From: Streptomyces coryli
Lineage (GTDB): Bacteria; Actinomycetota; Actinomycetes; Streptomycetales; Streptomycetaceae
Assembly: GCF_011044975.1 (NCBI RefSeq)
Contig: NZ_JAAKZV010000067.1
Location: 1-33,969 of the forward strand
Length of the DNA stretch: 33,969 nucleotides
Direction: 5' to 3'
In this document: one piece after another, positions 12,517 to 26,966 of the stretch
Layout of the letters: every line of letters starts with the position of its first letter
Numbering within the stretch: position 1 is the first letter of the stretch
Position numbers and translations under genes: made by a program
Notes under the pieces: model-generated
Databases searched by the model: none
What the model was told of the DNA's origin: nothing
What the model saw: the letters and a program-made list of their open reading frames with translations, nothing else

Positions 12517-13071
12517 ATGCCGGACAGGCCCACCCAGATCCTTCAAGCCACGGCCCGCCTCATCGCCCACCGCGGCGTGCGCGGGCTGCGCGTGGAGGAG
12601 GTCGCGGCCGAGGCGGGCGTGTCGACCGCGCTGATCTATTACCACTTCAAGAACCGCGCGGGCCTACTCCGGCACACCCTGGACTTCATCAACCGGCGCG
12701 CCATCCGCTACACCGAGCCCGACGTCCGTGCCCCCGATCCCCGCGCCCAGCTGACCGATATGCTCCTGATGGAGCTGCAGGACGACCCGTCCGTACGGGA
12801 GAACAGCGCGGCCTGGGGCGAGTTGCGGGCCACGGCTGTCTTCGACTCCGGTCTCCACGAGGAACTGGCCGCCGCCACCACGGCCTGGGTCACGGATGTG
12901 GCGGACCTGATCCGCCAGTCCGAGGCCGCCCAGGACACGGACCCGCAGGCCGCCGCCGAACGCCTCGTCGCTCTGGTCGAAGGCCTCAGCCAGCAGTGGC
13001 TGAGCCGCACGCTCACGCTCGAGCGCGCCCGCGAGCTGCTCCGCTCCGCCGTCGACCGCGAGCTGCGCTGA
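12517..13071 (+). CDS. TetR-family regulator divergent from the deiminase
   Basis: A 184-residue TetR protein. I prefer the ATG at 12517 (GGGAG, 5-nt spacer) over the GTG at 12496. The helix-turn-helix is textbook (LIAHRGVRGLRVEEVAAEAG, STALIYYHFKNRAGLLRHTL), and a KstR/BetI-like C-terminal domain follows, with AAERLVALVEGLSQQWLSRTLTLERARELL near the end. It probably represses itself and the deiminase lipoprotein; a polyamine or guanidino ligand is a guess from context. Its 3' end overlaps the convergent permease gene by 59 bases. Confidence 0.88.
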   Translation: MPDRPTQILQATARLIAHRGVRGLRVEEVAAEAGVSTALIYYHFKNRAGLLRHTLDFINRRAIRYTEPDVRAPDPRAQLTDMLLMELQDDPSVRENSAAWGELRATAVFDSGLHEELAAATTAWVTDVADLIRQSEAAQDTDPQAAAERLVALVEGLSQQWLSRTLTLERARELLRSAVDRELR

Positions 13072-14377
13072 CGGCACCGCGCTGCACCGCGTGCAGCGCC
13101 ACGGCGGTCAGCGTCCCCGCCACCACGCCGCTGCCGAGCACCGTCCGCACCCACCCCGGGAACGCGTCGTAGAGCCCGGGCGCGACCACCGGCGCCAGCC
13201 CGACGGCGAGGGCGAGCGCCGCCACCATCGACTGGCCGCGGTCGGCGAGGTCCCCGCGGTGCAGCATGTCCGCGCCCATCACGGCGATCATCGCGTACAC
13301 GACGAGCCCCGAGCCGCCGACCACCGGCGCCGGGATGCCCGCGAGCAGCCGGGACAGTGGCGCGAGCAGGCCGGCCGCGAGCAGCAGCGCGCCCGCCGCC
13401 GCGGTGACGTAGCGGCTGCGTACGCCGGTGAGCTTGGTGATGCCGACGTTCTCGGAGCTGGTGACCATCAGCGAGCCGCCGAAGACGCCGCCTAGCAGGG
13501 ATACGGCCGCGTCCGCCCGCGCGACCCGCGGCACGTCGCGCTCCGGGTGCGGGTCCCGGCCGACGGTCTCGCTGTTGAGCACCGTCTGGCCGGTGATCTC
13601 CGCGAGCGTGGTGAGGCTGAAGATCAGCAGCGGCAGCGCGGCAAGCAGGTCGAACTGCGGGGCGCCGTACGGGAACGGGTCCGGCAGCGCCATCCCCGAC
13701 CCCTCCGCCGGAGCGAAGTCCCCGAGCCCGGTCACCACCGCGACGAGCGTCCCGACCACCATGCCGATCAACACCGCCGTCTGCCGCCACACCCCGCGCA
13801 GCAGCACGTACGCGGCGAAGGTGGCGCCGATGGTGATGCCCGCGAGGGCGACGGCGGCGCGCCCCGGATGCCCCTCGGGGCCGGTGACCAACTGCGCCGC
13901 CACCCGCACCATCGCGATGCCGATGAGCAGCACCGTCACGCCCATCACCAGCGGCGGGAAGAGCCGCACGATACGGGCGTAGAGCGGCGTCACGGCAAGC
14001 AGCAGCAACGCCGCCAGCAGCACCGAGCCGCTCGCCACCGCGGGCCCGTGATCCTGCGCGATCTGCAGGAACAGCGCCGCCGCGGCCCCGCCCGGCAGCA
14101 TCACGAACGGCAGCCGCGCGCCGACCCCGTACCGCCCGAGGGACTGCAGCAGCGCCCCGAGCCCGCACAGCACCAGCACGGCGCTGAGCAGCGAGGCGGT
14201 GCGGGCGGGGGAGAGGTGCAGGGCGGTGGCGGTGAGGAAGACCGTGGAGATGGGCGCCGCGACCATTGCCAGCACGTGCTGGACGGCGAGCGGCGCGAGG
14301 CGGTGCAGCGGCACGCGCTCGTCGACGGGGTCGATGGCGTCGGCGGGCTTGGAGCTTGCGGGCGGGGTCACAGCCAC
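13013..14377 (-). CDS. NCS2-family nucleobase permease (xanthine/uracil type)
   Basis: A 454-residue protein with about 12-14 hydrophobic segments. The family's opening motif LAPLAVQHVLAMVAAPI is near residues 25-40, the substrate-site block ETVGRDPHPERDVPRVARADAAVSLLGGVFGG lies in the middle, and IPAPVVGGSGLVVYAMIAVMGADML matches the NCS2 signature. NCS2 proteins import uracil, xanthine or urate with protons or sodium; the substrate cannot be chosen here. The start is the GTG at 14377, preceded by GAGGAG with a 5-nt spacer; it overlaps the stop of the arylsulfotransferase-like gene by 10 bases, so the genes are coupled. The frame stays open far upstream, antisense-free but in the shadow of that gene. 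The last 20 residues are Arg-rich and overlap the convergent TetR gene. Confidence 0.87.
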   Translation of the reverse strand: MAVTPPASSKPADAIDPVDERVPLHRLAPLAVQHVLAMVAAPISTVFLTATALHLSPARTASLLSAVLVLCGLGALLQSLGRYGVGARLPFVMLPGGAAAALFLQIAQDHGPAVASGSVLLAALLLLAVTPLYARIVRLFPPLVMGVTVLLIGIAMVRVAAQLVTGPEGHPGRAAVALAGITIGATFAAYVLLRGVWRQTAVLIGMVVGTLVAVVTGLGDFAPAEGSGMALPDPFPYGAPQFDLLAALPLLIFSLTTLAEITGQTVLNSETVGRDPHPERDVPRVARADAAVSLLGGVFGGSLMVTSSENVGITKLTGVRSRYVTAAAGALLLAAGLLAPLSRLLAGIPAPVVGGSGLVVYAMIAVMGADMLHRGDLADRGQSMVAALALAVGLAPVVAPGLYDAFPGWVRTVLGSGVVAGTLTAVALHAVQRGAVSAARGRRRSGAARGRARA

Positions 14378-15480
14378 GGCAGCTCCTCGGCCGCGTAACG
14401 GTAGGAGCGGAAGACCGCGTTGGGCGCGGACGGGAAGAGCGAGCGGACCTCGCTCTCCTCGTACGGCGCGAACTGCGGCACCACGTACTCCCAGCACAGA
14501 TAGCCGTCCGCGGTCACCTCGAAGAGGCGCCCGGCGGGGGAGTCGGTGACGAGGGTGTTGCCGTTCGGCAGCCGCTGGGCGGAGCCCATGAACGGCGCGA
14601 AGAAGGACTCCCTCGCCGGATCGTGGTACTCCCACACGACCTTGCCGCTCGCCCGCTCGATCTCGATCACGCGCGAGTACGGGACGTCGGAGCCGCGCCG
14701 GAAGACGCCGTTGTCGAAGACAAGGAGATTGCCGTTCGGCAGCTCGGTGGGATGGTGCTGCTGGGAGACGGCGCCCGGGTCCGTACGCCACACCACCTCG
14801 CCCGTGGCGCGGCTGATCACGATCACGGCGGAGGTGCTGCGCAGCGAGGCGACGATGTCGCCGTCGGCGAGTTCCGCCACGGAGTTGATGAGCGGCCAGT
14901 GCTCGCGGGCGTAATGCGGGTGCAGCGGGAAGTCGTTCCGGTCGAGGTGCTCGGCGGCGCGCCACTCCCACCGCACGGTGCCGTCGGCGTCGAGTTCCTT
15001 GATGGTGTCGGCCCATACGGTGCCGCCCCCGGCCTCCGTGCCCGGCACCCCGCCGCGCACCGCGGCCGCGGCCGCGCCGGTGAGCGGCTCCAGGGCGGTG
15101 TAGAGGATGCGGCCGTCGTCGAGGTGGTTGGCGTCGTGGTGCTGCAGCGGGTCGCGGTGCTCGCGCAGCACGGTGCCGTCCGGGGCGGCCTGCAGCATGA
15201 CGCCGCCGCGGTACTTGTGCCACATCGGGAAGTGCGCGGACTCGCCGGGCAGCACGCCGTTGTAGGCGAGATTCCCGCCGGGGAGGATGCGGGCGTGCCG
15301 GCCCGGACGGTACGGCAACCGCCACTCGTGCACGGCCCGACCGTGCAGGTCGACGAGGTAGACCTCGCCGGTGCCGGTGAGCGGGGCGTAGAGGGTGTGG
15401 CCGGGGAAGGCGGCGGAGTCGTCCAGGGCGATGAGTCCGGTGCCGCGACGGCGGCGGGAGTTCTGGTCGATACGTGGCAT
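14368..15480 (-). CDS. Arylsulfotransferase (ASST)-like beta-propeller protein
   Basis: A 370-residue protein of the ASST-like superfamily: repeated blades of the form GxxxxLPNGNLLVFDNG, ARILPGGNLAYNG, HLDDGRILYTALEP and QRLPNGNTLVTDSPAG, each followed by a strand ending in VWEY or RWEW. True bacterial ASSTs transfer sulfate between phenols using several His and an Arg. Here LQHHDANHLDDG and SQQHHPTELPNG supply His in matching places, but I cannot confirm the full catalytic set. No signal peptide is evident: the N-terminus is Arg-rich (NSRRRRGTG) but lacks a hydrophobic stretch, so it looks cytosolic, unlike periplasmic ASSTs. It is the first gene of a coupled pair with the nucleobase permease, divergent from an XRE-cupin regulator. 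The substrate may be whatever the permease brings in. Confidence 0.75.
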   Translation of the reverse strand: MPRIDQNSRRRRGTGLIALDDSAAFPGHTLYAPLTGTGEVYLVDLHGRAVHEWRLPYRPGRHARILPGGNLAYNGVLPGESAHFPMWHKYRGGVMLQAAPDGTVLREHRDPLQHHDANHLDDGRILYTALEPLTGAAAAAVRGGVPGTEAGGGTVWADTIKELDADGTVRWEWRAAEHLDRNDFPLHPHYAREHWPLINSVAELADGDIVASLRSTSAVIVISRATGEVVWRTDPGAVSQQHHPTELPNGNLLVFDNGVFRRGSDVPYSRVIEIERASGKVVWEYHDPARESFFAPFMGSAQRLPNGNTLVTDSPAGRLFEVTADGYLCWEYVVPQFAPYEESEVRSLFPSAPNAVFRSYRYAAEELPWL

Positions 15481-16230: not shown

Positions 16231-17211
16231 TCAGATACGGCCGGGTGGTGCCGATCGCGTCGCGAAGCGGTCGATGGCTGCGACGACGGCCGACGCGGTC
16301 TCGCCGCCGCCCGCACCGTGGCCCTCGCGCTCGATGACGGTCAGCTCCGCGTCCGGCCAGGCCTGCGCCATCCGCCACGCGGTGTCCAGCGGGCTGCTGA
16401 TGTCGATGCGGCCGTGGATCAGTGCGCCCGGGATGCCCGCCAGCTTGGCGGCGTCGCGCAGCAGGGCGTCGTCCTCGAGGAACGCCGCGTTCGCCCAGTA
16501 GTGGGTGACCAGGCGGGCGATGCGCATCCGGCACACCGGGTCCGCGTAGCGGGGGTCGGGCTCGTGGCCCGGGTCGGTCGCGACGTGGGTGTCCTCCCAG
16601 CGACACCACTCCAGCGCTGCCTTCTCGCGCACCTGCGGGTCCAGATCGGCGAGCATCCGGGCATACGCGGCCGCCAGGTTGCCGTCGCGTTCGGCCGGCG
16701 GGACGGTATCGCGGAAGCGCGCCCACTCCTCGGGGAAGATCCGGCCCATGTCGCGGGTGAGCCACTCGACCTCGCGGTGCCGGCTGTTGGTGACGCTGAA
16801 CAGCACCAGCTCGCTGACGCTCCGCGGATGCTCCTCGGCGTACGCGAATCCGAGGGTGGCGCCCCACGAGCCGCCGACCACGAGCCATTGCCCGATGCCC
16901 AGATGGCGGCGCAACTGCTCGATGTCCGCGATCAGATGCCAGGTCGTGTTGGCCTCCAGCGAGGTGGCGAAGTCGGCGGCGTCGGGGGTGCTGCGTCCGC
17001 AGCCGCGCTGATCGAAGAGCACCACCCGGTACGCCGCCGGGTCGAACAGCCGCCGCCAGAACGGGGTCGCCCCGCTGCCGGGCCCGCCGTGCAGCACGAG
17101 CGCCGGCTTGCCCTTTGGATTTCCGCAGGTCTCCCAGTAGACGCGATGGCCGTCGCCGACATCGAGCATGCCGTGCTCGTACGGCTCAATCGGCGGGTAC
17201 AGCTCAGCCAT
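16231..17211 (-). CDS. pip: Prolyl aminopeptidase, alpha/beta hydrolase (S33)
   Basis: A 326-residue cytosolic peptidase that removes N-terminal proline. The start ATG at 17211 (MAELYPPIEPY) matches the conserved family start; the frame extends 23 codons further into the operator region. All S33 landmarks are visible: oxyanion motif HGGPG at 41-45, DQRGCGRS at 67-74, nucleophile elbow GGSWG with Ser115, the acid in HGRIDISSP and the His in EREGHGAG. The DTVPPAERDGNLAAAY and LEWCRWEDTHV segments are the typical cap region. Length and motif order fit PIP well. It is divergent from a MarR gene across a perfect 20-bp palindrome, an unusually dedicated control for a housekeeping-type peptidase. 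Confidence 0.93.
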   Translation of the reverse strand: MAELYPPIEPYEHGMLDVGDGHRVYWETCGNPKGKPALVLHGGPGSGATPFWRRLFDPAAYRVVLFDQRGCGRSTPDAADFATSLEANTTWHLIADIEQLRRHLGIGQWLVVGGSWGATLGFAYAEEHPRSVSELVLFSVTNSRHREVEWLTRDMGRIFPEEWARFRDTVPPAERDGNLAAAYARMLADLDPQVREKAALEWCRWEDTHVATDPGHEPDPRYADPVCRMRIARLVTHYWANAAFLEDDALLRDAAKLAGIPGALIHGRIDISSPLDTAWRMAQAWPDAELTVIEREGHGAGGGETASAVVAAIDRFATRSAPPGRI

Positions 17212-17241
17212 TGGCCCCGACCTCCACGTCTCGCCCCGGAT

Positions 17242-17261
17242 ATCTAACAGCGCTGTTAGAT
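17242..17261. promoter_or_regulatory. Perfect 20-bp palindromic MarR operator
   Basis: ATCTAACAGCGCTGTTAGAT reads identically on both strands without a spacer. It lies 30 bases from the aminopeptidase start and 7 bases before the MarR start. Uninterrupted dyads of about this size with TAAC/GTTA ends are usual MarR-family sites. The right end (TTAGAT, 17256-17261) could be the -10 of a leaderless marR transcript. Confidence 0.75.
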
Positions 17262-17268
17262 TAGCAGG

Positions 17269-17748
17269 ATGAAGAACCACCCCGACCAGGCCGCCTTGGG
17301 CACCCTGCTACGCCACGTGCTCGAACTCCTCGACGACGGCGTGGCCAAGGTCTACGTGGACCAGGGCTTGCCGGAGTACCGCCCCCGGTTCTCGCCGGTG
17401 GTCCGCGCGCTGGTCGCCGACGGCCCCCTGCCCATCCGCGCGCTGGCCGAGGCGGTCGGCGTCACCCACTCCGCCGCCAGCCAGACCGTGGCGCAGATGG
17501 TCCGCGCCGGTCTGGCGGCCCAGGCGCCCGACCCCGCCGACGCCCGCCGCCGCCTGGTCAGCCTCACCCCGCAGGCCCGCCGGCTCTTGCCGCAGGTCGA
17601 CGCCGAGTGGACTGCGACGGTGGCGGCGCTGGCGGAGTTGGACGGGGAGCTGTCCATGCCGCTGGGCACCCTGCTCACCGAGGCCGCCGAGGCCCTGGCG
17701 CACCGTCCGTTCGGAGAGCGCATCGCCTCGGTGCTCGGGCGGGACTAG
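17269..17748 (+). CDS. MarR-family regulator
   Basis: A 159-residue winged-helix protein. The DNA-binding region is LPIRALAEAVGVTHSAASQTVAQMVRAGLAA followed by the wing with DARRRLVSLTPQARRLLP (read in parts, about residues 52-105). Helices on both sides would form the dimer interface. Starting at the ATG 17269 gives almost no room for a ribosome site (AGCAGG directly abuts it), so translation may be leaderless. It is divergent from prolyl aminopeptidase and almost certainly binds the 20-bp palindrome between them. Its TAG stop overlaps the TAG stop of the convergent sulfatase in a shared CTAG. Confidence 0.88.
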   Translation: MKNHPDQAALGTLLRHVLELLDDGVAKVYVDQGLPEYRPRFSPVVRALVADGPLPIRALAEAVGVTHSAASQTVAQMVRAGLAAQAPDPADARRRLVSLTPQARRLLPQVDAEWTATVAALAELDGELSMPLGTLLTEAAEALAHRPFGERIASVLGRD

Positions 17749-19166
17749 GAAGCGTATGGCAGCAGGCCGGCGTCGGTCTGCTCCCATGCCGTGCGCAGGC
17801 GGTCGAGGAGCTCCGGCTCGGAGCGGGCCTGGTCGGCGAGTTCGCGCGGGTCGGCGGTGAGGTGGAAGAGCTGGTCGGCGCCCGACTTGCCGCGGTAGTA
17901 CTTCCAGTCACCGCGGCGCAGCGCCCGCTCCCCGCGTACCCGCCAGAAGAGGTCACGGTCGGGTGCGTCCTCGCCGCGCAGCAGGTAGCCGGCCAGGCTG
18001 GCCCCGTCCAGGGGATGGGTGGAGGCCGGGCGGGCGCCGCCGAGCTTGAGCAGCGTCGCCGTCCAGTCAGGGCTGAACACCGGGACATGGCTGACCTGGC
18101 CGCCGCGCAGCCGGGTCGGCCAGCGGGCGATGGTCGGCACGCGGATGCCGCCCTCCTGGAGCGACGATTTATTGCCGGACAGCGGCCAGTTGTACGACCA
18201 GCGCTCGCCGCCGTTGTCGCTGGCGAAGATGACCAGGGTGTCCTCGGCCTGCCCGGAGCGGTCCAGGGCGTCGAGGACGGTGCCGATGGAGCGGTCCAGG
18301 TCCTCGACCATGGTTCGGTAGATCTCCAGTGAGCCGCCGTCGTCGTGCCACAGCGCCCGCTGGTCGCCCGCCTTGATCCGGGCGGTGATCTCGGCCGACG
18401 TCTGCTCGTCGCCGTCCGCGATCCACGGCCAGTGCGGGGTGGTGAAGTTGAGGTTCAGCAGCCAGGGCCGGCTCTGCTCGCGGCGCTCGGAGACGAAGTC
18501 GGCGGCGCGCTCCGTAAGGATGCGGGTGTAGTAGCGCAGGTCCTTGTGCTGCGCGTCGCCCTCGTAGAGGTCGTACTCGCCGTTCCCGCTCAGCTTGGAG
18601 TAGTACTCCAGCGCGCCGCCGAAGTTGCCGAAGAAGGTCTGCCAGCCGGACTTGGTGGGGGAGTAGTCCGGGAGGAAGCCGCAGTGCCACTTGCCGATCA
18701 GCGCCGTGTCGTAGCCGACCCCGCGCAGCAGCGAGGCCAGGGTGGGGTCGCCCGGCTCCAGGCCCACGGACTTGTCCGCTATCGGCTCCGCCAAGCCGCC
18801 CTTCGTACGGCCCGGGTAGCGGCCGGTGTAGAGGCTGAAGCGGGTGGGGGAGCAGGTCGCGGAGCCGGAGTAGGCGTGGGTGAAGCGGACGCCCTGGCGG
18901 GCGAGGCGGTCCAGGTGCGGGGTGCGGATGTGGGTGGAGCCGTAGGAGGACAGGTCGGCCCAGCCGAGGTCGTCGCCGAGGATGAAGAGGATGTTGGGGC
19001 GGCGGGAGCTGGCCTTTGTGTCGGCGCGGAAATCCCGCTCCGGTGGGTGGGGTTGGGCCTGCCGGGTGGCGGCGGCCGCGGTCGTGGGTGCGGCGAGGGC
19101 GCCGGCGGCGGCCGAGGCGGCCGATGCGGCCGTGAAGGCGCGCCGGGACAGGGGAGAGGAGGGCAT
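17745..19166 (-). CDS. Tat-exported sulfatase (formylglycine type)
   Basis: A 473-residue secreted sulfate-ester hydrolase. The start at 19166 has GGAG 8 nt upstream and begins the Tat signal directly (SRRAFTAASAASAAAGALAAP, residues 7-27 in part). The sulfatase fold is clear: metal site NILFILGDDLGWAD at 58-71, the formylglycine motif CSPTR at 105-109 within SATCSPTRFSLYTGRYPGR, GKWHCG, and the second metal/sulfate site FASDNGGERW. The Cys must be oxidised by a formylglycine-generating enzyme, which is not in the window. It probably releases sulfate from extracellular sulfated carbohydrates or aryl esters. Upstream lies a cysteine-type leader peptide, which suggests the gene is switched on by sulfur or cysteine shortage. 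Confidence 0.92.
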   Translation of the reverse strand: MPSSPLSRRAFTAASAASAAAGALAAPTTAAAATRQAQPHPPERDFRADTKASSRRPNILFILGDDLGWADLSSYGSTHIRTPHLDRLARQGVRFTHAYSGSATCSPTRFSLYTGRYPGRTKGGLAEPIADKSVGLEPGDPTLASLLRGVGYDTALIGKWHCGFLPDYSPTKSGWQTFFGNFGGALEYYSKLSGNGEYDLYEGDAQHKDLRYYTRILTERAADFVSERREQSRPWLLNLNFTTPHWPWIADGDEQTSAEITARIKAGDQRALWHDDGGSLEIYRTMVEDLDRSIGTVLDALDRSGQAEDTLVIFASDNGGERWSYNWPLSGNKSSLQEGGIRVPTIARWPTRLRGGQVSHVPVFSPDWTATLLKLGGARPASTHPLDGASLAGYLLRGEDAPDRDLFWRVRGERALRRGDWKYYRGKSGADQLFHLTADPRELADQARSEPELLDRLRTAWEQTDAGLLPYAS

Positions 19167-19319
19167 GGCGGAGCTCCGGTCCGTGGTCGGGGGAGGAGGG
19201 TGCGTGGCAGGTCGGCGGGGGACACTCCGGCTGCGGGCTGTGGCCTGGTGCCGTAAGCAGTCGGGAGCCGGGGCTTCCACGGCCGCCGTCAAGCGGCCGG
19301 ATGCTCACCCGGCGTGAGG

Positions 19320-19412
19320 TCAGCCGCGGCGACAGCAGGCGCTCGCCACGCGACCGAAGTCAACGTGACGGCGCTGGGTGAGCGCGAGGCGCGCTGCACG
19401 GGTCTGCGGCAT
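19320..19412 (-). CDS. Cysteine-type leader peptide upstream of the sulfatase
   Basis: A 30-codon ORF (ATG at 19412, TGA ending at 19320) that translates to a peptide ending in RRHVDFGRVASACCRRG. The RxHVDxxRVAS-x-C core followed by tandem Cys codons (TGC TGT, residues 26-27) is the conserved signature of the tiny actinobacterial peptides annotated as putative leader peptides. In mycobacteria and relatives, Cys-ending upstream ORFs are known to control downstream sulfur genes by cysteine-responsive attenuation. Starved ribosomes would stall at the Cys codons and change access to the sulfatase start 153 nt downstream. On the minus strand TTGACC (19442-19447) and GACGAT (19419-19424), 17 nt apart, place the transcript start at or next to the ATG, so the peptide may be translated leaderless. 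An in-frame GTG at 19436 is a less likely start. Confidence 0.82.
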   Translation of the reverse strand: MPQTRAARLALTQRRHVDFGRVASACCRRG

Positions 19413-19418
19413 CCGGTG

Positions 19419-19447
19419 ATCGTCGCGGCGGCACACCGGCAGGTCAA
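19419..19447 (-). promoter_or_regulatory. Putative promoter of the leader peptide and sulfatase
   Basis: On the minus strand a -35 TTGACC (plus 19442-19447) and a -10-like GACGAT (19419-19424) are separated by 17 nt. The -10 ends 6 nt before the leader ATG. The -35 is good and the -10 poor (3 of 6), which is common in Streptomyces. Confidence 0.4.
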
Positions 19448-19541: not shown

Positions 19542-20438
19542 ATGACCCCGTACGCAACACCTCTTGGCGGATGGGGAGTGGCACGGGGCATGGGCGTTTC
19601 ATGGGGCGCGCGCCGCAAGCGGCTTGGCTATCAGGTGCAGATGGACACCGCCGTCGCCGGCATGATCGGCCTGCCGCACGCGAGAAGGCTGGACCGGCTG
19701 CACGAGTACGGTGACCTCCTGCTGCACGATCCGTCCTTCGTCCTCCTGCGGATCGAGAACAACGGTGCGCGACACATCGACACCAGCGACTACACCGCCT
19801 CCGCCGCGGACCAGACCGGCATCCGCATCCACTTTCCCGGCCGCCGCATCGCCGACGTGGCGGTGACCGAGTTCAGCGATGACGTCGTACGCGTCCCCTT
19901 CGAACTCGGCGCCGGCTTCGACTTCGGGCTGAACGTACGGGACGGCGCCATCGAGTTGCCCAAAGTCCCGCTGCACCGCTCCGCGCACTACAAGGTCTTC
20001 GCCGTCCTCGACCGCCTGCCCGGCGACGACCGCCAGGTCCCGAGCGCCCCGAGCGATGCCGTGGTGGTGAGCGGCGGCGTCCGCGACGGCGAGATCCAGG
20101 CGATCCGAGGCCGGCGTGGCACCCCGCGGTCTCCCCGCGCCGAGCGCCGCCGAGCCGCCTGGCTCGCCGCCGCGGCGGCCCTCGCCTACGTGGCCGCCTT
20201 CTTCGCCGCGCGCCCCGTACTCACCGAGATCCGTGCCGACCAACTGGGCCCCGGAGACGCCCCGGACGTCATCACCGCGATCGGCGCCCTGGGCACCGCG
20301 ATCGGCCTGAGCACCGCCGCGATCATCAAGGCGGTCGCGTCCCTGATCCACGCGAAGGCGGACATGGTACGAGCCCGCGCCGGCCTCGAAGCCGCCCAAC
20401 CGGCCGCCGAACCGGAACCGGCTGCGGAACAGGAGTGA
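19542..20438 (+). CDS. Unknown protein with C-terminal membrane segments, coupled to the P-loop gene
   Basis: A 298-residue protein I recognise only by resemblance to a group of Streptomyces proteins that carry ARRKRLGYQVQMDT near the N-terminus, followed by a beta-rich domain with SFVLLRIENNG, GIRIHFPGRRIADVAVTEFS, ELPKVPLHRSAHYKVFAVLDR and SGGVRDGEI (about residues 26-190). In the members I remember, a membrane helix precedes ARRKRLGYQ; here that helix is missing. Instead two hydrophobic stretches follow the domain (about 208-230 and 243-267), then an alanine/glutamate-rich tail. The N-terminal 16 residues may not be translated, since an ATG at 19590 is also possible. The stop overlaps the next gene's possible GTG, and the AGGAG just before the stop serves that gene, so the two are probably one unit. 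Function unknown. Confidence 0.65.
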   Translation: MTPYATPLGGWGVARGMGVSWGARRKRLGYQVQMDTAVAGMIGLPHARRLDRLHEYGDLLLHDPSFVLLRIENNGARHIDTSDYTASAADQTGIRIHFPGRRIADVAVTEFSDDVVRVPFELGAGFDFGLNVRDGAIELPKVPLHRSAHYKVFAVLDRLPGDDRQVPSAPSDAVVVSGGVRDGEIQAIRGRRGTPRSPRAERRRAAWLAAAAALAYVAAFFAARPVLTEIRADQLGPGDAPDVITAIGALGTAIGLSTAAIIKAVASLIHAKADMVRARAGLEAAQPAAEPEPAAEQE

Positions 20439-20443
20439 CCGCG

Positions 20444-21589
20444 ATGACGCCGGCCTTTCCCGTGCTGTGGCTCTGCGGGCCGCCGGGGGTGGGGAAGACC
20501 ACGGTCGCGTGGGAGATGTACTCCCAGCTCACGCGGGCCGGGGTCGACTGCGGCTTTGTCGACATCGATCAGCTGGGCATGTGTTATCCCGAGCCTGCGG
20601 AGGATCCGGGGCGGCATCGCATGAAGGCCCGCAACCTTCACGCGGTGGTCGCGGGCTTCCGGGAGGCGGGTGCTCAGGGGCTCATCGTGTCCGGTGTCGT
20701 CGACCCTGCCCGTGGAGTGCTGGCCGACCGGATTCCGCGTGCGGGGGTGACGGTGTGCCGGATGCGGGCCGACCGGGATGTGCTGCGGGAGCGGTTCCTC
20801 GGCCGCGGCGCTCCTGCCGACCTGGTCGACGACGTGCTGCGCGAGGCGGACGCCCTCGATGCGAGCGACTTCGCGGATCTGTGTGTCGGCACGAGCGGGA
20901 TGGATGTGGCGCAGGTCGTGCGCCTTGTCACGGAGCGCACCGATGGCTGGCTCGCCACCGCTCCGGTCCGGTCGTCCGACGCCCCTGAGCCCCAGCCGGC
21001 GCCTCCCGCCGACGGCACCGTGCTGTGGCTGTGCGGCGCGACCGGTGTCGGCAAGTCGACGGTCGGTTTCGCGGTGTACCAGCGGGTCCTGAGGGCCGGC
21101 GTCGCCGCCGCGTATCTCGACCTCGACCAGCTGGGCTTCTGCCATCCGGTCCCGGAGGACGATCCTGGCAATCACCGGGTCAAGGCCCGTAACCTGGCCG
21201 CCGTCCGGCGCACCTACCGGGCCGCCGGGGCGCAGGTCCTCATCCTGACCGGCCCGGTCGAGGACGAGACGGCAGTCAAGGCGTACGCGGACGCGCTGCC
21301 GGGGGCAGACCTCCGGCTGTACCGGCTCCATGCCGAACGGGAGCACCTGACCGAGCGCATCATGTCCCGTAGAGAAGGCGGCAGTTGGGCTCAGCCTGGT
21401 GATCCGCTACGGGGGAAATCCGTCGCGCACCTGCGCCACGTCGCCGACGAGGCGGTGTCCTCGGCAGCCGCCCTGGAAGCCGCCGGGATCGGCGATCTGC
21501 GCATCGACACCGACGCACGTACCGTCCAGGAGACAGCCGACACAATCGCCGCCCACGCCGGCTTACCGCCCGGCGTCAGGCCTTCTTGA
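20444..21589 (+). CDS. Tandem-duplicated P-loop kinase/ATPase-like protein of unknown function
   Basis: A 381-residue cytosolic protein made of two copies of one P-loop domain. Copy 1 (about 7-170) has Walker A GPPGVGKT at 12-19, [10 protein letters not shown] at 40-49, KARNL at 61-65 and SGVVDPARG. Copy 2 (about 192-375) has GATGVGKS at 198-205, [10 protein letters not shown] at 226-235, KARNL at 247-251 and TGPVEDE. Both begin with VLWLCG. The small domain and the Asp after the second strand resemble nucleoside/gluconate/APS-kinase-like folds rather than large AAA+ ATPases. Both Walker A motifs look intact. I start at the ATG 20444 (AGGAG, 8-nt spacer); a GTG at 20435 overlaps the upstream stop. 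The partner and any substrate are unknown. The 3' end overlaps the convergent zinc-ribbon gene by 14 bases. Confidence 0.8.
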
Positions 21590-22146: not shown

Positions 22147-23163
22147 ATGCGCGGCGCAGTGATCCACGCCCCCGGTGACGTCCGCTTCGAAACCGTCGAT
22201 GACCCGAAGATCGAGAAGCCCACGGACGCGATCATCCGCACGGTGGTGACCTGCGTGTGCGGCTCGGACCTGTGGCCGTACCGCGGTCTGGAGCCGATCG
22301 GCGATCCGCACCCGATGGGCCACGAGTACGTCGGTGTCGTCGAGGAGGTCGGCAGCGAGGTCACCGCCGTCCGGCCGGGGCAGTTCGTCGTCGGCTCCTT
22401 CGCCACCTCGGACAACACCTGCGCCAACTGCCGCAACGGCTGGCAGTCGCACTGTCTGAACCGCGTGTTCATGGGCACCTGCCAGGCCGAATACGTGCGC
22501 ATCCCCAACGCCCAGGGCACGCTGGTCGCCACCGACGAGCACCCGCCCGAGGAGATGCTGCCCGGCCTGCTCGCCGTCTCCGATGTGATGGGCACCGGCT
22601 GGTACGCGGCGCTGGCCGCCGAGGTGCGGCCCGGTGGCACGGCCGTGGTGGTCGGGGACGGCGCGGTCGGTCTGTGCGGGGTGATCGCCGCCAAGGAGAT
22701 GGGCGCCGAGCGGGTCATCGCGATGAGCCGGCACGAGCCGCGGCAGCGGCTGGCCCGCGAGTTCGGGGCGACCGACATCATCGACGAGCGCGGCGAGGAG
22801 GGGGTCGCCCTCGTCAAGGAGATGACGGGCGGGATCGGCGCCGACTCGGTCCTGGAGTGCGTCGGCACCTCGCAGTCCATGCGGCAGGCCCTGCACGCGG
22901 CCCGGCCCGGCGGCAACGTCGGCTTCGTCGGCGTCCCGCACGAGGTGGCCGTCGACGGGGAGGAGCTCTTCCACTCCCACGTCGCCCTGCGCGGCGGCCC
23001 CGCCCCCGTACGTGGCTATCTGCCGGACCTGATCGACCGCGTGCTGGCGGGCCACATCGACCCGGGCAAGGTCTTCGACCTCACCCTGCCGCTGGCCGAG
23101 GTCGCCGAGGGCTACAAGGCGATGGACGAGCGACGGGCCATCAAGACCCTGCTCAAGCCGTGA
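22147..23163 (+). CDS. Zinc-dependent alcohol dehydrogenase (MDR family)
   Basis: A 338-residue medium-chain dehydrogenase. The catalytic zinc site is seen in CVCGSDLWPYRG and MGHEYVGVVEEVG. The structural zinc lobe is DNTCANCRNGWQSHC, where the first of the usual four Cys is replaced by a polar residue, as in several relatives. The nucleotide-binding motif is GDGAVGLCGVIAAKEMGA, and FDLTLPLAEVAEGYKAMDER is the standard C-terminal end. It oxidises an alcohol or reduces an aldehyde with NAD(P). AAGGAAG lies upstream of the ATG. The stop overlaps the start of the Fe-S subunit gene, so it heads the aldehyde oxidoreductase operon; alcohol to aldehyde to acid is a sensible order of reactions. Confidence 0.9.
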   Translation: MRGAVIHAPGDVRFETVDDPKIEKPTDAIIRTVVTCVCGSDLWPYRGLEPIGDPHPMGHEYVGVVEEVGSEVTAVRPGQFVVGSFATSDNTCANCRNGWQSHCLNRVFMGTCQAEYVRIPNAQGTLVATDEHPPEEMLPGLLAVSDVMGTGWYAALAAEVRPGGTAVVVGDGAVGLCGVIAAKEMGAERVIAMSRHEPRQRLAREFGATDIIDERGEEGVALVKEMTGGIGADSVLECVGTSQSMRQALHAARPGGNVGFVGVPHEVAVDGEELFHSHVALRGGPAPVRGYLPDLIDRVLAGHIDPGKVFDLTLPLAEVAEGYKAMDERRAIKTLLKP

Positions 23164-23774
23164 CCGCCGGGACCCGCCCCGGCAAGCTGCCGACCGATCC
23201 CGCACTCCCCACGCGGCGCACCTTCGTCGCCACCACCACCGGCACCGCCGTAGGAGCCATCATGGTCGCTGGACACTCCGCCGCGGCGGCGGGAGCTGCC
23301 GCTGAGGTGCCCGCCACCCGCGTCTCCCTCACGGTCAACGGCACCCGCCGCACCGCGACGATCGACAACCGCACCTCCCTGCTGGACCTGCTGCGCGAGC
23401 ACTTCGGCCTGACCGGCTCCAAGAAGGGCTGCGACGCGGGGGCCTGCGGGGCGTGCACCGTGCTGATCGACGGGCGCCGGGTCAATGCCTGTCTGACGCT
23501 CGCGGTGCGGCTCGAAGGCGCCGACGTCACCACGATCGAGGGCCTGGCGGACGGCAATGAACTGCACGCCCTGCAGCAGGCCTTCATCGACCAGGACGCC
23601 TTCCAGTGCGGCTACTGCACGCCAGGCCAAATCGTCTCCGGTGCCGCGTGCATCGAGGAGGGACACACCGGCTCGCCGGAGGAGATCAGGGAGTGGATGA
23701 GCGGCAATGTCTGCCGCTGCGGCTGCTATCCGAAGATCGTGCGCGCGGTCCAGCAGGCCGCGGGCGGGAAGTGA
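23160..23774 (+). CDS. paoA: Aldehyde oxidoreductase 2Fe-2S subunit, Tat-exported (PaoA/YagT-like)
   Basis: A 204-residue small subunit of the xanthine oxidase family. The GTG start at 23160 overlaps the previous stop (GTGA). It is chosen because it is needed for the Tat signal: TRRTFVATTTGTAVGAIMVAG at 18-38 with twin Arg 19-20. Two [2Fe-2S] sets follow: the plant-ferredoxin type at Cys91, Cys96, Cys99 and Cys111, and the helical type at Cys150, Cys153, Cys185 and Cys187. A Tat signal on the Fe-S subunit is typical of periplasmic PaoABC complexes, where the other two subunits are carried out with it. No strong ribosome site is seen, in line with translational coupling. Confidence 0.9.
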   Translation: MTAGTRPGKLPTDPALPTRRTFVATTTGTAVGAIMVAGHSAAAAGAAAEVPATRVSLTVNGTRRTATIDNRTSLLDLLREHFGLTGSKKGCDAGACGACTVLIDGRRVNACLTLAVRLEGADVTTIEGLADGNELHALQQAFIDQDAFQCGYCTPGQIVSGAACIEEGHTGSPEEIREWMSGNVCRCGCYPKIVRAVQQAAGGK

Positions 23775-23787
23775 GGTGCCGTAAGAC

Positions 23788-24768
23788 ATGCACCCGTTCA
23801 CCTACACCCGCGCCTCGGACGTCCCCGAGGCCATCGCCGCCGGACGCCGCGGCGGCCGCTACATCGCCGGCGGCACCACGCTCGTCGACCTGATGCGCGA
23901 GGGCGTCGAGCGGCCGGAGACCGTGGTCGACATCTCCGGCCTGCCGCTGCGCGACGTCGTCGCCACCGAGCGCGGAGGTCTGCGCATCGGCGCGCTGGTC
24001 ACCATGGCCGAGGCGGCCGCCCACCCTAAGGTGCGCGCCCTGTTCCCGGTCGTCTCCGAGGCGCTGGAGCTCAGCGCCTCGGCACAGCTCCGCAACATGG
24101 CCTCCATCGGCGGCAACATCATGCAGCGCACCCGCTGCCCGTATTTCCGCGACCCGACGGCCGCCTGCAACAAGCGTGATCCGGGCGCGGGTTGCGCCGC
24201 CCGCGGCGGCTTCAACCGCGGTCACGCCATCCTCGGCGCGTCCGACTCCTGCGTGGCCACGCATTGCTCCGACGTCGCGGTGGCCTTCGCCGCGCTGGAG
24301 GCGACGGTGCGGCTGCTGGGCCCGGACGGGCGCCGCCAAGTCCCCATCGCAGAATTTCTGCTCCGTCCAAAGACCTCGCCGGACCGCGAACACGACATTG
24401 GGGATGGCGAGTTGATTACGGCGATCGAGCTCCCCGCGCTCCCTCGTCCGCTGCAGTCCGGGTACCTGAAGGTGCGCGACCGCCAGTCGTACGAGTTCGC
24501 GCTCACCTCCGCCGCCGTCGCCCTGCACGTACACGGCGGCGTGATCCGCACCGCGAAGGTCGCTGCCGGAGGCGTCGGCACCGTTCCGTGGAAACTGCCC
24601 GCCGTCGAAGAGCACCTCGTCGGCGAACGCCCCTCCCAGAGCCTCTGGGCCACCGCGGCCGCCAAATCCGCGGACGGAGCCAGCCCGTTGCAGCACAACC
24701 GCTTCAAGGTCGAGCTGCTCAAGCGCACCGTCGAGCGTCAGCTGCGCATCGTAGGAGGTACGGAGTGA
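23788..24768 (+). CDS. paoB: Aldehyde oxidoreductase FAD subunit (PaoB/YagS-like)
   Basis: A 326-residue FAD-binding subunit of the molybdenum hydroxylase family. FAD-site motifs AGGTTLVDLMREG (27-39) and ASIGGNIMQ (105-113) are seen. An extra loop after it carries Cys117, Cys127, Cys136 and more Cys at 155 and 160; PaoB-type subunits have an added [4Fe-4S] cluster in this loop, which ordinary xanthine dehydrogenases lack. The C-terminal domain (RQSYEFALTSAAVAL) is standard. It has no signal of its own and would be exported in complex with the Fe-S subunit. The last bases overlap the start of the molybdenum subunit gene. Confidence 0.92.
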   Translation: MHPFTYTRASDVPEAIAAGRRGGRYIAGGTTLVDLMREGVERPETVVDISGLPLRDVVATERGGLRIGALVTMAEAAAHPKVRALFPVVSEALELSASAQLRNMASIGGNIMQRTRCPYFRDPTAACNKRDPGAGCAARGGFNRGHAILGASDSCVATHCSDVAVAFAALEATVRLLGPDGRRQVPIAEFLLRPKTSPDREHDIGDGELITAIELPALPRPLQSGYLKVRDRQSYEFALTSAAVALHVHGGVIRTAKVAAGGVGTVPWKLPAVEEHLVGERPSQSLWATAAAKSADGASPLQHNRFKVELLKRTVERQLRIVGGTE

Positions 24769-26966
24769 GCCCGCAGCCGCAGGCAGCCGTCGGCGCGCCC
24801 CTGTCCCGGGTGGACGGGCGGCTGAAGGTCACCGGCGAGGCCCGGTATGCCGCCGAGCACGACGTCGACGGTGCCGCACACGCCGTTCTCGTCGACGCGA
24901 GCATCGGCCGCGGCCGTATCACCGCCGTCGACACCCGCGCCGCGCTCGCCCACCCGGGCGTGCTCCGGGTGCTCCACCACGGCAACGCGCCGCGCCTCCC
25001 GTACCGCGCTAACTCCGGCTCGAACAACCCGCCCGGCCGCCGCCTGCGCGTCCTTCAGGACGACCTGGTCCGCTTCCACGGCCAGCCGGTCGCCGTCGTC
25101 ATCGCCACCACCCTGGAGGCGGCGCAGCACGGAGCGCGCCTGGTCAAGGTCCGTTACGACGCCGAGCAGCCGTCCACGGACCTGGCCGAGGGCGAGCCGG
25201 GCAAGCCGGAGACGTACGCGCGCGGCGACGCCGAAGCCGCGCTGCGCGACGCGGCCGTGCGCCTTGATCTGTCGTACCGGCTGGCCCGCAACCACCACAA
25301 TCCGATGGAGCCGCACGCCACCATCGCCCGCTGGGACGGCGGCAGCCTCACCGTGTGGGACAAGACCCAGTGGGTCGTCGGCACGCAGCAGGAACTCGCC
25401 GCCGTCTTCGGCCTGGCGAAGGACGCGGTGCGGGTCATCTCCCCGTTCGTCGGCGGCGGCTTCGGCAGCGGGCTGCGCTGCTGGCCGCACACGGTCGCCG
25501 CCGCGCTCGCCGCGCGCGTCGCCGAGCGGCCGGTGAAGGTGGTCCTCAGCCGGCGGCAGATGTACGCCGGCACCGGCTTTCGGCCCGCGTACGACTACCG
25601 GCTGCGGCTCGGCAGCGACCGCCGCGGCCGGCTGAAGGGCGCGATCCACGCCATCGACGGCGAGACGTCCTCGTACGAGACCTTCACCGAAGGCATCATG
25701 ACCGCGGGCCAGACGCTCTACAGCCTCGCCGCCGTCCGGCAGGCGTACCGGACGGTGTCGCTGGACGTGAACACCCCGGTCTGGATGCGCGGTCCTGGCT
25801 TCGCCTCGGCGTCCTTCGTCCTCGAAACGGCGATGGACGAACTCGCCGACCGCCTCGGCCTCGACCCGATCGAGCTGCGCCGGCGCAACGAGCCGGACGA
25901 GGACGAGTCGAACGGCCACCGGTTCTCCACCCGCCGGCTGCGCGAGTGCTGCACCGTCGGCGCCCGCGAGTTCGGCTGGGAGAGCCGCCCGCTGCAGCCG
26001 CGTTCCCGGCGGGAGGGGGACTGGCTGATCGGCATGGGTATGGCCGCGGGCGTCTACGACCCCGGGCGCATGCCCGCCAAGGCCCGGGCCCGCCTGGACG
26101 CCGACGGCACGGCGGTCGTCGAGGCCGCGTCGAGCGACATGGGTCCCGGCACGTACACCGCCCAGACCCAAGTCGCCGCCGACGCGCTCGGCCTGACCAT
26201 GCGTACGGTCACCTTCCGCCTCGGCGACTCGCTCTACCCACCGACACCGGCGCACGGCGGCTCCATGACCATGGCCAGCGTGGGCTCCGCCGTCCTGGAC
26301 GCGTGCGACCAGATCCGCCGGCAGGCGATCGAGCTGGCGGTCGCGGATCGCGAGTCACCGCTGCACGGTGCGGACGCGGAGGATGTGGTCGTACGGGCCG
26401 GGCGCCTGCACCTGAGGAGCGACTCGGCGCGCGGTGAGACGTACCGGAGCCTGCTGGGCCGCAATGACCGCGCGCACCTCTCGGCGGACGGCTCCTACGC
26501 AGGGCCGCCCGACTCCGAGCGGCTCACCGTCCACGCCTACAACGCCACCTTCGCCGAGGTCGCCGTCGACGCGACGCTGGGGCTGGTGCGCGTACGCCGC
26601 ATGCTCGGCGTCTACGACGCGGGCCGCATCATCAGCTCCAAGCTGGCCGAGAGCCAGGCCATCGGCGGCATGGTGGGCGGCATCGGCACGGCGCTGATGG
26701 AGCACACGATCACCGACCACCGCGACGGCCGCATCGTGAACGCCAACCTCGCCGACTATCTGGTCCCGGTCAACGCCGACGTCCCTGAGGTGAAGGCGCT
26801 TTATCTGGAGGGCAACGACCCCGACGCCGACCCGCTCGGCGTCAAAGGCCTCGGCGAGGTTGTCCAGGTCGGGGTCGCCCCGGCCATTGCCAATGCGGTC
26901 TTCAACGCCACCGGCCGCCGCGTCCGGGAACTGCCCATCACGATCGAGGCGCTGCTCCAGAACTGA
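24765..26966 (+). CDS. paoC: Aldehyde oxidoreductase molybdenum-cofactor subunit (PaoC/YagR-like)
   Basis: A 733-residue large subunit, the length of PaoC. The GTG at 24765 has an excellent AGGAGGT 5 nt upstream and overlaps the previous stop (GTGA). The frame opens further upstream, but that part is the shadow of the FAD gene. Seen are the N-terminal RVDGRLKVTGEARYAAEHD, NHHNPMEPHATIARW, the molybdopterin loop GGGFGSG (230-236) and, near the end, KGLGEV with Glu698 as the expected catalytic base. The enzyme would oxidise aldehydes to acids. The substrate range (aromatic in E. coli PaoABC) cannot be read from sequence. No PaoD-like chaperone or cytidylyltransferase follows; it must be supplied elsewhere. 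Confidence 0.92.
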   Translation: MSPQPQAAVGAPLSRVDGRLKVTGEARYAAEHDVDGAAHAVLVDASIGRGRITAVDTRAALAHPGVLRVLHHGNAPRLPYRANSGSNNPPGRRLRVLQDDLVRFHGQPVAVVIATTLEAAQHGARLVKVRYDAEQPSTDLAEGEPGKPETYARGDAEAALRDAAVRLDLSYRLARNHHNPMEPHATIARWDGGSLTVWDKTQWVVGTQQELAAVFGLAKDAVRVISPFVGGGFGSGLRCWPHTVAAALAARVAERPVKVVLSRRQMYAGTGFRPAYDYRLRLGSDRRGRLKGAIHAIDGETSSYETFTEGIMTAGQTLYSLAAVRQAYRTVSLDVNTPVWMRGPGFASASFVLETAMDELADRLGLDPIELRRRNEPDEDESNGHRFSTRRLRECCTVGAREFGWESRPLQPRSRREGDWLIGMGMAAGVYDPGRMPAKARARLDADGTAVVEAASSDMGPGTYTAQTQVAADALGLTMRTVTFRLGDSLYPPTPAHGGSMTMASVGSAVLDACDQIRRQAIELAVADRESPLHGADAEDVVVRAGRLHLRSDSARGETYRSLLGRNDRAHLSADGSYAGPPDSERLTVHAYNATFAEVAVDATLGLVRVRRMLGVYDAGRIISSKLAESQAIGGMVGGIGTALMEHTITDHRDGRIVNANLADYLVPVNADVPEVKALYLEGNDPDADPLGVKGLGEVVQVGVAPAIANAVFNATGRRVRELPITIEALLQN

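Follow-up and report, generated by a model that had tools for sequence, protein, structure and literature searches.

A putative cysteine-sensing leader peptide with a conserved UGU codon upstream of a secreted sulfatase gene in Streptomyces

In a 33,969-nucleotide stretch of the Streptomyces coryli genome (contig NZ_JAAKZV010000067.1, hereafter the window), a 30-codon ORF upstream of a gene for a secreted sulfatase reads as a member of the actinobacterial family of cysteine leader peptides. We propose, with a probability of roughly 0.7, that a leaderless cysteine-sensing attenuator formed with this ORF controls the sulfatase. The leader is of a known kind; a secreted sulfatase as its target was not found in print, and comparison of related leaders adds a family-wide codon regularity, in that the one invariant Cys codon is nearly always UGU.

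Results

The leader ORF lies at 19320..19412 on the minus strand and translates as MPQTRAARLALTQRRHVDFGRVASACCRRG, followed by a stop codon. Against the NCBIfam model NF042934 ("putative leader peptide") it scored 28.3 bits, above the curated cut-off of 27, and NCBI rules would therefore name it "putative leader peptide". The original prediction had called this ORF an unannotated leader peptide of the actinobacterial cysteine type. The type is borne out by the NF042934 score and by a core that is kept before close orthologues of the sulfatase, while the word "unannotated" may hold for this record but not against NF042934. The mycobacterial Cys-rich leader models NF042936 (33.1 bits, residues 10-28) and NF042933 (22.3 bits) both remained below their cut-off of 45. 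A leader profile made from the sulfatase leaders of other species, with the window excluded, matched the ORF at E 2e-11, and the runner-up among the six-frame pieces of the window had E 0.11. The stop codon follows three codons past Cys27, and the start of the sulfatase lies 153 nt further on in the same strand; by our own reading, the NF042934 family consists of short ORFs that end soon past the motif and have a same-strand gene downstream. The ORF, the promoter-like boxes, the 153-nt gap, the stem and the palindrome described earlier for this locus were all found in place.

The downstream gene (17745..19166, minus strand) encodes a Tat-type secreted S1 sulfatase of 473 aa. A PF00884 domain (E 1e-56), a C-x-P-x-R active site and an export signal, which together mark an S1 sulfatase, are all present; the formylglycine-type motif CSPTR and the SRRAF of the twin-arginine N-terminus were read by eye. 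The nearest solved sequences are sulfatase 6bia and carrageenan sulfatases. The start codon is the ATG at 19166; TTG and GTG starts upstream of it were set aside, since the ATG has a GGAG. For seven orthologues we assigned the Tat-type start manually, and the starts in L009 and L071 are doubtful.

A search of public genomes gave 265 sulfatase relatives, of which the best 80 were kept (71-81% identity over the best segment, nearly all labelled Streptomyces). A homologous leader was found upstream of the sulfatase in 76 of these 80 loci, or in 76 of the 77 that could be judged. Two of the four loci without a leader (L039 and L044) run into contig ends and one (L058) into a run of N, which leaves L074 as the genuine absence. 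The core-motif leader lies within 700 nt of the sulfatase in 75 of the 80 loci, and somewhat farther upstream in L076. When 700-nt upstream regions were scanned, the core motif was present in 76/77, compared with 3/3850 letter-shuffled copies and 0/77 on the reverse strand; this set of 77 had been picked for motif presence, and the unbiased figure is 76/80. The usual leader in the sulfatase loci is MQPLGDRTVTLVERRHVDLVRVASAICRC or a sequence near it, and the sulfatase leader on the S. clavuligerus plasmid pCLA1 is likewise present, with UGU. Among 150 genomes sampled from the genus, 54 had a sulfatase match at E 1e-60 or better; upstream regions were inspected for 50 of the 57 sulfatase matches, and the leader was present at 30 of the 30 best sulfatase loci, some species of which overlap with the 80-locus set. 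Conservation of the small ORF upstream of sulfatase orthologues, the check set by the original prediction, is thus evident among the close loci. Across 57 unique leader cores, pN/pS was 0.20, and diversity at the three codon positions was 0.10, 0.07 and 0.33; from these values, selection acts on the leader peptide.

Farther out in the sulfatase family the leader thins out. Among 18 further orthologues at 65-74% identity, nine have the leader, several as the variant HVDLCRQSSAVCR, and nine do not. Six relatives at 53-70% identity from a sample of the class (L165-L170) had no leader by a strict motif scan, and the upstream regions of two sulfatase paralogues at 42-43% identity contained no leader. 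Because half of the 65-74% orthologues and L165-L170 are without it, the leader is a feature of one section of the sulfatase family, and control of the sulfatase by a leader, as judged from these loci, is not universal across the family. In the leaderless loci L143, L144, L146, L147, L149, L152 and L153, the gene immediately before the sulfatase has an end resembling that of a glycogen-debranching enzyme, and in these loci the leader was either lost or never gained.

The leader promoter has a -35 box TTGACC at 19442..19447 and, 17 nt after it and 6 nt before the ATG, a -10-like hexamer GACGAT at 19419..19424 (both minus strand), the latter assigned from the sequence and from the geometry of the orthologues. 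In 76 of 77 sulfatase loci, TTGAC stands 35-38 nt ahead of the leader start codon, the value in the window being 35 nt; the sole exception is L015, whose leader start we believe to have been placed seven codons downstream of the real one. A leaderless ORF requires a constant spacing of this kind between -35 box and ATG, which agrees with the earlier suggestion that the leader ORF is probably leaderless.

Related leaders are found widely in the Actinomycetes. In six Streptomyces genomes, all of them represented, NF042934 had 42 matches over its cut-off, and members over the cut-off were found in 17/17 genus genomes and 45/60 class genomes. In 14 control genomes, searching with NF042934 at E 1 gave weak matches in six, none over the cut-off, and searching at E 1e-4 gave no match. 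We scanned the downstream ORFs of 149 of 153 such leaders, leaving out those of L287, L205, L206 and L228. Among the most frequent Pfam families, rhodanese (24) came first, followed by sulfite reductase (19), PALP (cysteine synthase, 18), cysteine dioxygenase (14), luciferase-like monooxygenase (13), SBP_bac_5 (8), ABC permease (6), PAPS reductase (4), SDF (4) and sulfatase (3, behind L173, L175 and L194); the tally is rough, because the ORFs were picked on their GC-position score, some of them are wrong or truncated where the locus ends (that of L174 has no family), and 25 of 42 Pfam and 25 of 90 NCBIfam families were listed. A number of the downstream ORFs show no evident link to sulfur, among them a regulator behind L307 and glutathione S-transferase-like (GST-like) ORFs behind L311 and L314. 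Taken at this resolution, the sulfatase is one target among mostly sulfur genes. Since homologous leaders precede genes of sulfur assimilation, the proposed extension of the regulon to a secreted sulfatase, made in the original prediction, holds at the level of sequence.

The invariant Cys lies 11 codons after the His of the motif (position 11). In the window it is Cys27, whose codon UGU at 19332..19334 (minus strand) is the proposed sensor codon. The sulfatase leaders encode the invariant Cys by UGU in 76 of 77 cases, including the window, and the paralogous leaders that precede other genes do so in 24 of 24. We then read 158 of 215 distinct NF042934-family places across Actinomycetes (224 listed, nine twice), 100 of them hand-picked for variety rather than at random, and found UGU in 149, UGC in three, Ser in four and a stop codon in one, the remaining one being a spurious parse (L287). 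By comparison, UGU makes up 26 of 295 Cys codons (about 9%) in the downstream ORFs, 1/143 in the sulfatase genes, 154/1453 in roughly called neighbour genes, and 32/157 at the remaining Cys positions of these leaders, counted from the His on and with one leader entered twice. When the invariant Cys was compared with the downstream ORFs, Fisher's test gave p 9e-87, a value that was computed with one UGU too many and that overstates the case, since the leaders share a common origin.

Common ancestry by itself leaves unexplained why the third base of this codon remains T when other third positions are free to change; inheritance as the only cause is also unlikely given that UGU to UGC is a single transition and that the genomes favour UGC. 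RNA structure is an unlikely cause as well, since the codons on either side vary. We therefore read the UGU bias as a probable sign of selection on decoding. Position 8 is nearly invariant too, with the Ser codon AGC in 75/77 sulfatase leaders, but nothing was drawn from it, since AGC cannot reach TCN without a non-Ser step. In the window the UGU is preceded by a second Cys codon, UGC for Cys26 (19335..19337, minus strand), and the original prediction had regarded the tandem as a feature of the leader. Among the 77 leaders, however, only the window has Cys here, the others having Ile, Val, Leu, Gly or Ala; what is kept is a single Cys codon.

The exceptions to the rule are few. A group of sulfatase leaders (L008, L113, L116 and L119, with at least one species present twice) has UGC at position 11 and UGU at a Cys at position 4, and the same holds for L304, so that in both exceptional lineages UGU stands seven codons earlier than usual. 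Conversely, leaders with a Cys at position 4 and UGU at position 11 have UGC at position 4 in 46 of 52 cases. L283 and L307 contain no UGU anywhere from His to stop. The sensor Cys is replaced by Ser (AGC or AGT) in L311, L314, L321 and L327, and by a stop codon in L274 (RVCSAI, then TGA); L314, L321, L327 and L274, but not L311, have a Cys four codons earlier that is encoded by UGC. Given the GST-like ORFs behind L311 and L314, these leaders, which lack the sensor Cys, may answer to another signal.

The 153-nt gap from the leader stop to the sulfatase start (19167..19319, minus strand) is rich in C and poor in G (C 0.47, G 0.29) and is a candidate Rho-loading stretch. C exceeds G in 77 of 77 gaps of the sulfatase loci (mean C 0.47, G 0.27), compared with 81 of 133 control regions taken in front of other called genes (C 0.36, G 0.34) and 17 of 76 stretches upstream of the leaders. 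The shift in composition begins at the leader stop codon, as it also does in 64 leaders from the genus and 83 from the class (82 distinct). The length of the gap varies ninefold across the loci, from 58 to 535 nt, which makes it a poor fit to a fixed RNA switch.

No conserved hairpin was found among the gaps of the sulfatase loci. The 7-bp stem CGGCCGC-TTGACG-GCGGCCG (19280..19299, minus strand), the longest in the gap of the window, has no U-run and is followed by TGGAAGCC. The longest stems in the gaps were slightly longer than those of shuffled sequences (mean 3.5 versus 2.6 bp), with none common to the loci, and folding energies relative to shuffled sequences had a mean z of -0.24 near the leader end and -0.06 near the start, L020 alone reaching -5.6. 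A search of Rfam at the gathering threshold gave no match in the window. An intrinsic terminator was therefore rejected, there being no conserved hairpin among the loci and neither a U-run nor an Rfam family in the window. The palindrome GGAGCTCC (19170..19177, minus strand), which holds the Shine-Dalgarno sequence GGAG of the sulfatase, occurs in 1/77 loci, namely the window itself, and was rejected as a functional element. The original prediction had pointed to both the stem and the palindrome; they are present in the window but do not recur, and the comparison of homologous loci that it called for shows the core of the leader kept and the stem not shared.

We also modelled the RNA from the leader through the gap to the sulfatase start in 74 loci. 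The mean accessibility of the sulfatase ribosome site was 0.18 in free RNA, 0.22 with a ribosome stalled at the Cys codon, 0.23 with a ribosome at the stop codon and 0.22 with the block shifted (stalled versus free, p 0.08; stalled versus stop, p 0.17), and in the window it was 0.03 free and 0.02 stalled. A ribosome at the Cys codon thus gave no general freeing of the site in the 74 models, and masking of the ribosome site is not supported as a general rule. The C-rich, G-poor gap after the leaders, together with the lack of a conserved hairpin among them, makes Rho a candidate, and Rho-dependent termination in the gap is our candidate output step.

Discussion

Based on these sequences, we infer the following mechanism. 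RNA polymerase would start at or beside the A of the leader ATG, and the ribosome would translate the leader directly. Near the leader end, behind the nascent RRHVD(L/F)xRVASA, the ribosome would meet the one Cys codon. Bacteria have a single tRNA-Cys, with the anticodon GCA, which reads UGU through a G-U wobble pair. With Cys-tRNA in short supply, the ribosome would wait at the UGU, which is 3 codons before the stop in the window and 0-11 codons before it in the family, and the waiting ribosome would raise expression of the sulfatase. When Cys-tRNA is plentiful, the ribosome would finish the leader and expression of the sulfatase would stay low. Under cysteine shortage the cell would in this way secrete an enzyme that releases sulfate from extracellular sulfate esters. 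A broader form of the proposal, to which we give even chances, is that leaders across Actinomycetes sense cysteine via one wobble-decoded UGU behind a conserved nascent peptide, that the synonymous codon choice is the setting of the sensor, and that the regulon extends to the secreted sulfatase.

The output step could instead be masking of the sulfatase ribosome site. Canestrari et al. in 2020 are said to have described translation attenuation of cysteine genes in M. smegmatis, with the downstream ribosome site reportedly masked by RNA structure. Here the leader RNA or the gap would pair with the ribosome site of the sulfatase, and a ribosome at the Cys codon would open the pairing, with no termination of transcription. 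Besides the mycobacterial precedent, three loci speak for such a step, as a block at the Cys codon frees the Shine-Dalgarno sequence in L027 (from 0.25 to 0.77), L049 (from 0.05 to 0.49) and L035 (from 0.00 to 0.27); however, placing the block at the stop codon has much the same effect in these loci (0.59, 0.56 and 0.39). With no consistent effect over the 74 loci or in the window, structure on average no greater than in shuffled sequences and a gap of such variable length, we regard translational attenuation as possible but distinctly less probable than our main proposal.

The sensor, too, could be of another kind. An arrest peptide might sense a small molecule (cysteine, sulfide or sulfite) in the ribosome tunnel, in which case the peptide motif would be the sensor and charging of tRNA-Cys would be secondary. 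Leaders before unrelated genes share the HVD(L/F)xR motif and keep it at a fixed distance from the Cys, something that plain counting of codons would not need, and the low pN/pS points the same way. Sensing by residue alone, on the other hand, would not explain UGU over UGC, since both encode the same residue, and we consider this reading unlikely. A further reading sets the leader aside altogether and leaves the sulfatase to its promoter, with the ORF as a fixed 5' feature of no regulatory role. The TTGAC box is indeed as conserved as the leader, and promoter elements could carry all of the control, but selection at the level of the peptide, the conserved UGU and the presence of such leaders ahead of a wide variety of genes make control by the promoter alone very improbable. 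Stalling at the wobble-decoded UGU in a leaderless attenuator therefore remains the reading that we favour.

The direction of control may differ between targets. Cysteine dioxygenase genes, whose products break down cysteine, have a variant-core leader of the type VHMDLVRYAGCVCRPSC (checked for L195 and L233). Because an enzyme that destroys cysteine has the same kind of leader, either the direction differs between targets or the signal is not simple starvation; the same direction at cysteine dioxygenase as at cysteine synthase makes little sense, and the output may thus be reversed at the cysteine dioxygenase leaders.

The mycobacterial polycysteine leaderless sORF attenuators (NF042933 leader_Ms5788A and NF042936 leader_Ms4527A) have the core motif in common with the sulfatase leader, as well as the leaderless-type geometry and a short ORF ahead of a sulfur-related gene. 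They differ in having a polycysteine run where the sulfatase leaders have one invariant Cys (two in the window); moreover, the target here is a secreted sulfatase, and there is no general sign of ribosome-site masking. NF042934 (cis_reg_atten), whose cut-off the window ORF passes, is a protein profile and is silent on targets and on UGU. A classical transcription attenuator has an intrinsic terminator hairpin with a U-run, which is not found in the window. The tnaC leader of the E. coli tryptophanase operon bears no sequence relation to the sulfatase leader and is a model only of how it could work, with a ribosome near the leader end shielding the RNA from Rho. It senses tryptophan through an arrest peptide.

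Terminator-less leader peptides before the cys operons of Mycobacterium and P. acnes and before cbs of B. longum were described by Seliverstov et al. in 2005 (PMC1262725), where tnaC is named as a model. In the passages of that paper on these leaders, as here, the Cys codons lie near the stop, there is no terminator hairpin, the gap is pyrimidine-rich and Rho is suggested for the mycobacterial cys leaders. The same passages, however, have the Cys codons in runs, call the pyrimidine motifs not conserved and treat Rho as a weak prediction, whereas here C exceeds G in every gap. The Rhodobacterales cysS attenuator uORFC-8-2, in the account given of it in PMC8632094, also has Cys codons in a short upstream ORF; those are tandem and mostly UGC, an intrinsic terminator follows, and the system is unrelated to the sulfatase leader. 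In the part of the S. lividans reannotation that deals with leader peptides (PMC8079986), eight are given, none described as Cys-dependent, and a sulfatase is not mentioned. Smith et al. (PMC9094748) noted a G/C skew in such M. tuberculosis ORFs that is reduced by their Cys codons, and the relevant main text does not name UGU. Our full-text literature searches found no secreted sulfatase as a target of a cysteine leader or of cysteine attenuation, nor, by title among the matches listed, of Streptomyces leader peptides, and a search on UGU in cysteine leader attenuation returned matches on RNA modification only.

More than 95% of soil sulfur is organic, according to the figure quoted in PMC4267179. 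Streptomyces live in such soils, and sulfate esters are among the organic sulfur. If the sulfatase is linked to cysteine, its export would join nutrient release outside the cell to ribosome-based control of sulfur assimilation. The UGU bias further offers a marker of the sensor codon, both simple and testable, for a leader family that is large and apparently little studied: if UGU is the sensor, one synonymous base change should weaken or abolish the control.

Several other genes lie around the sulfatase in the window. A xanthine-permease-like protein and subunits of a molybdenum oxidoreductase are encoded at 13013-14500 (minus strand), 22257-23774 (plus strand) and 24192-26966 (plus strand); the subunits resemble PaoA/PaoC and xanthine dehydrogenase, and these matches score under the curated cut-offs of the corresponding models. 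An ORF near the sulfatase on the opposite strand (20435-21589, plus strand) encodes a protein with two parts that resemble P-loop kinases, both of them weakly similar to adenylyl-sulfate kinase. On the same strand as the sulfatase and 464 nt downstream of it, the gene at 16231-17280 (minus strand) encodes a prolyl aminopeptidase (TIGR01249, over the cut-off).
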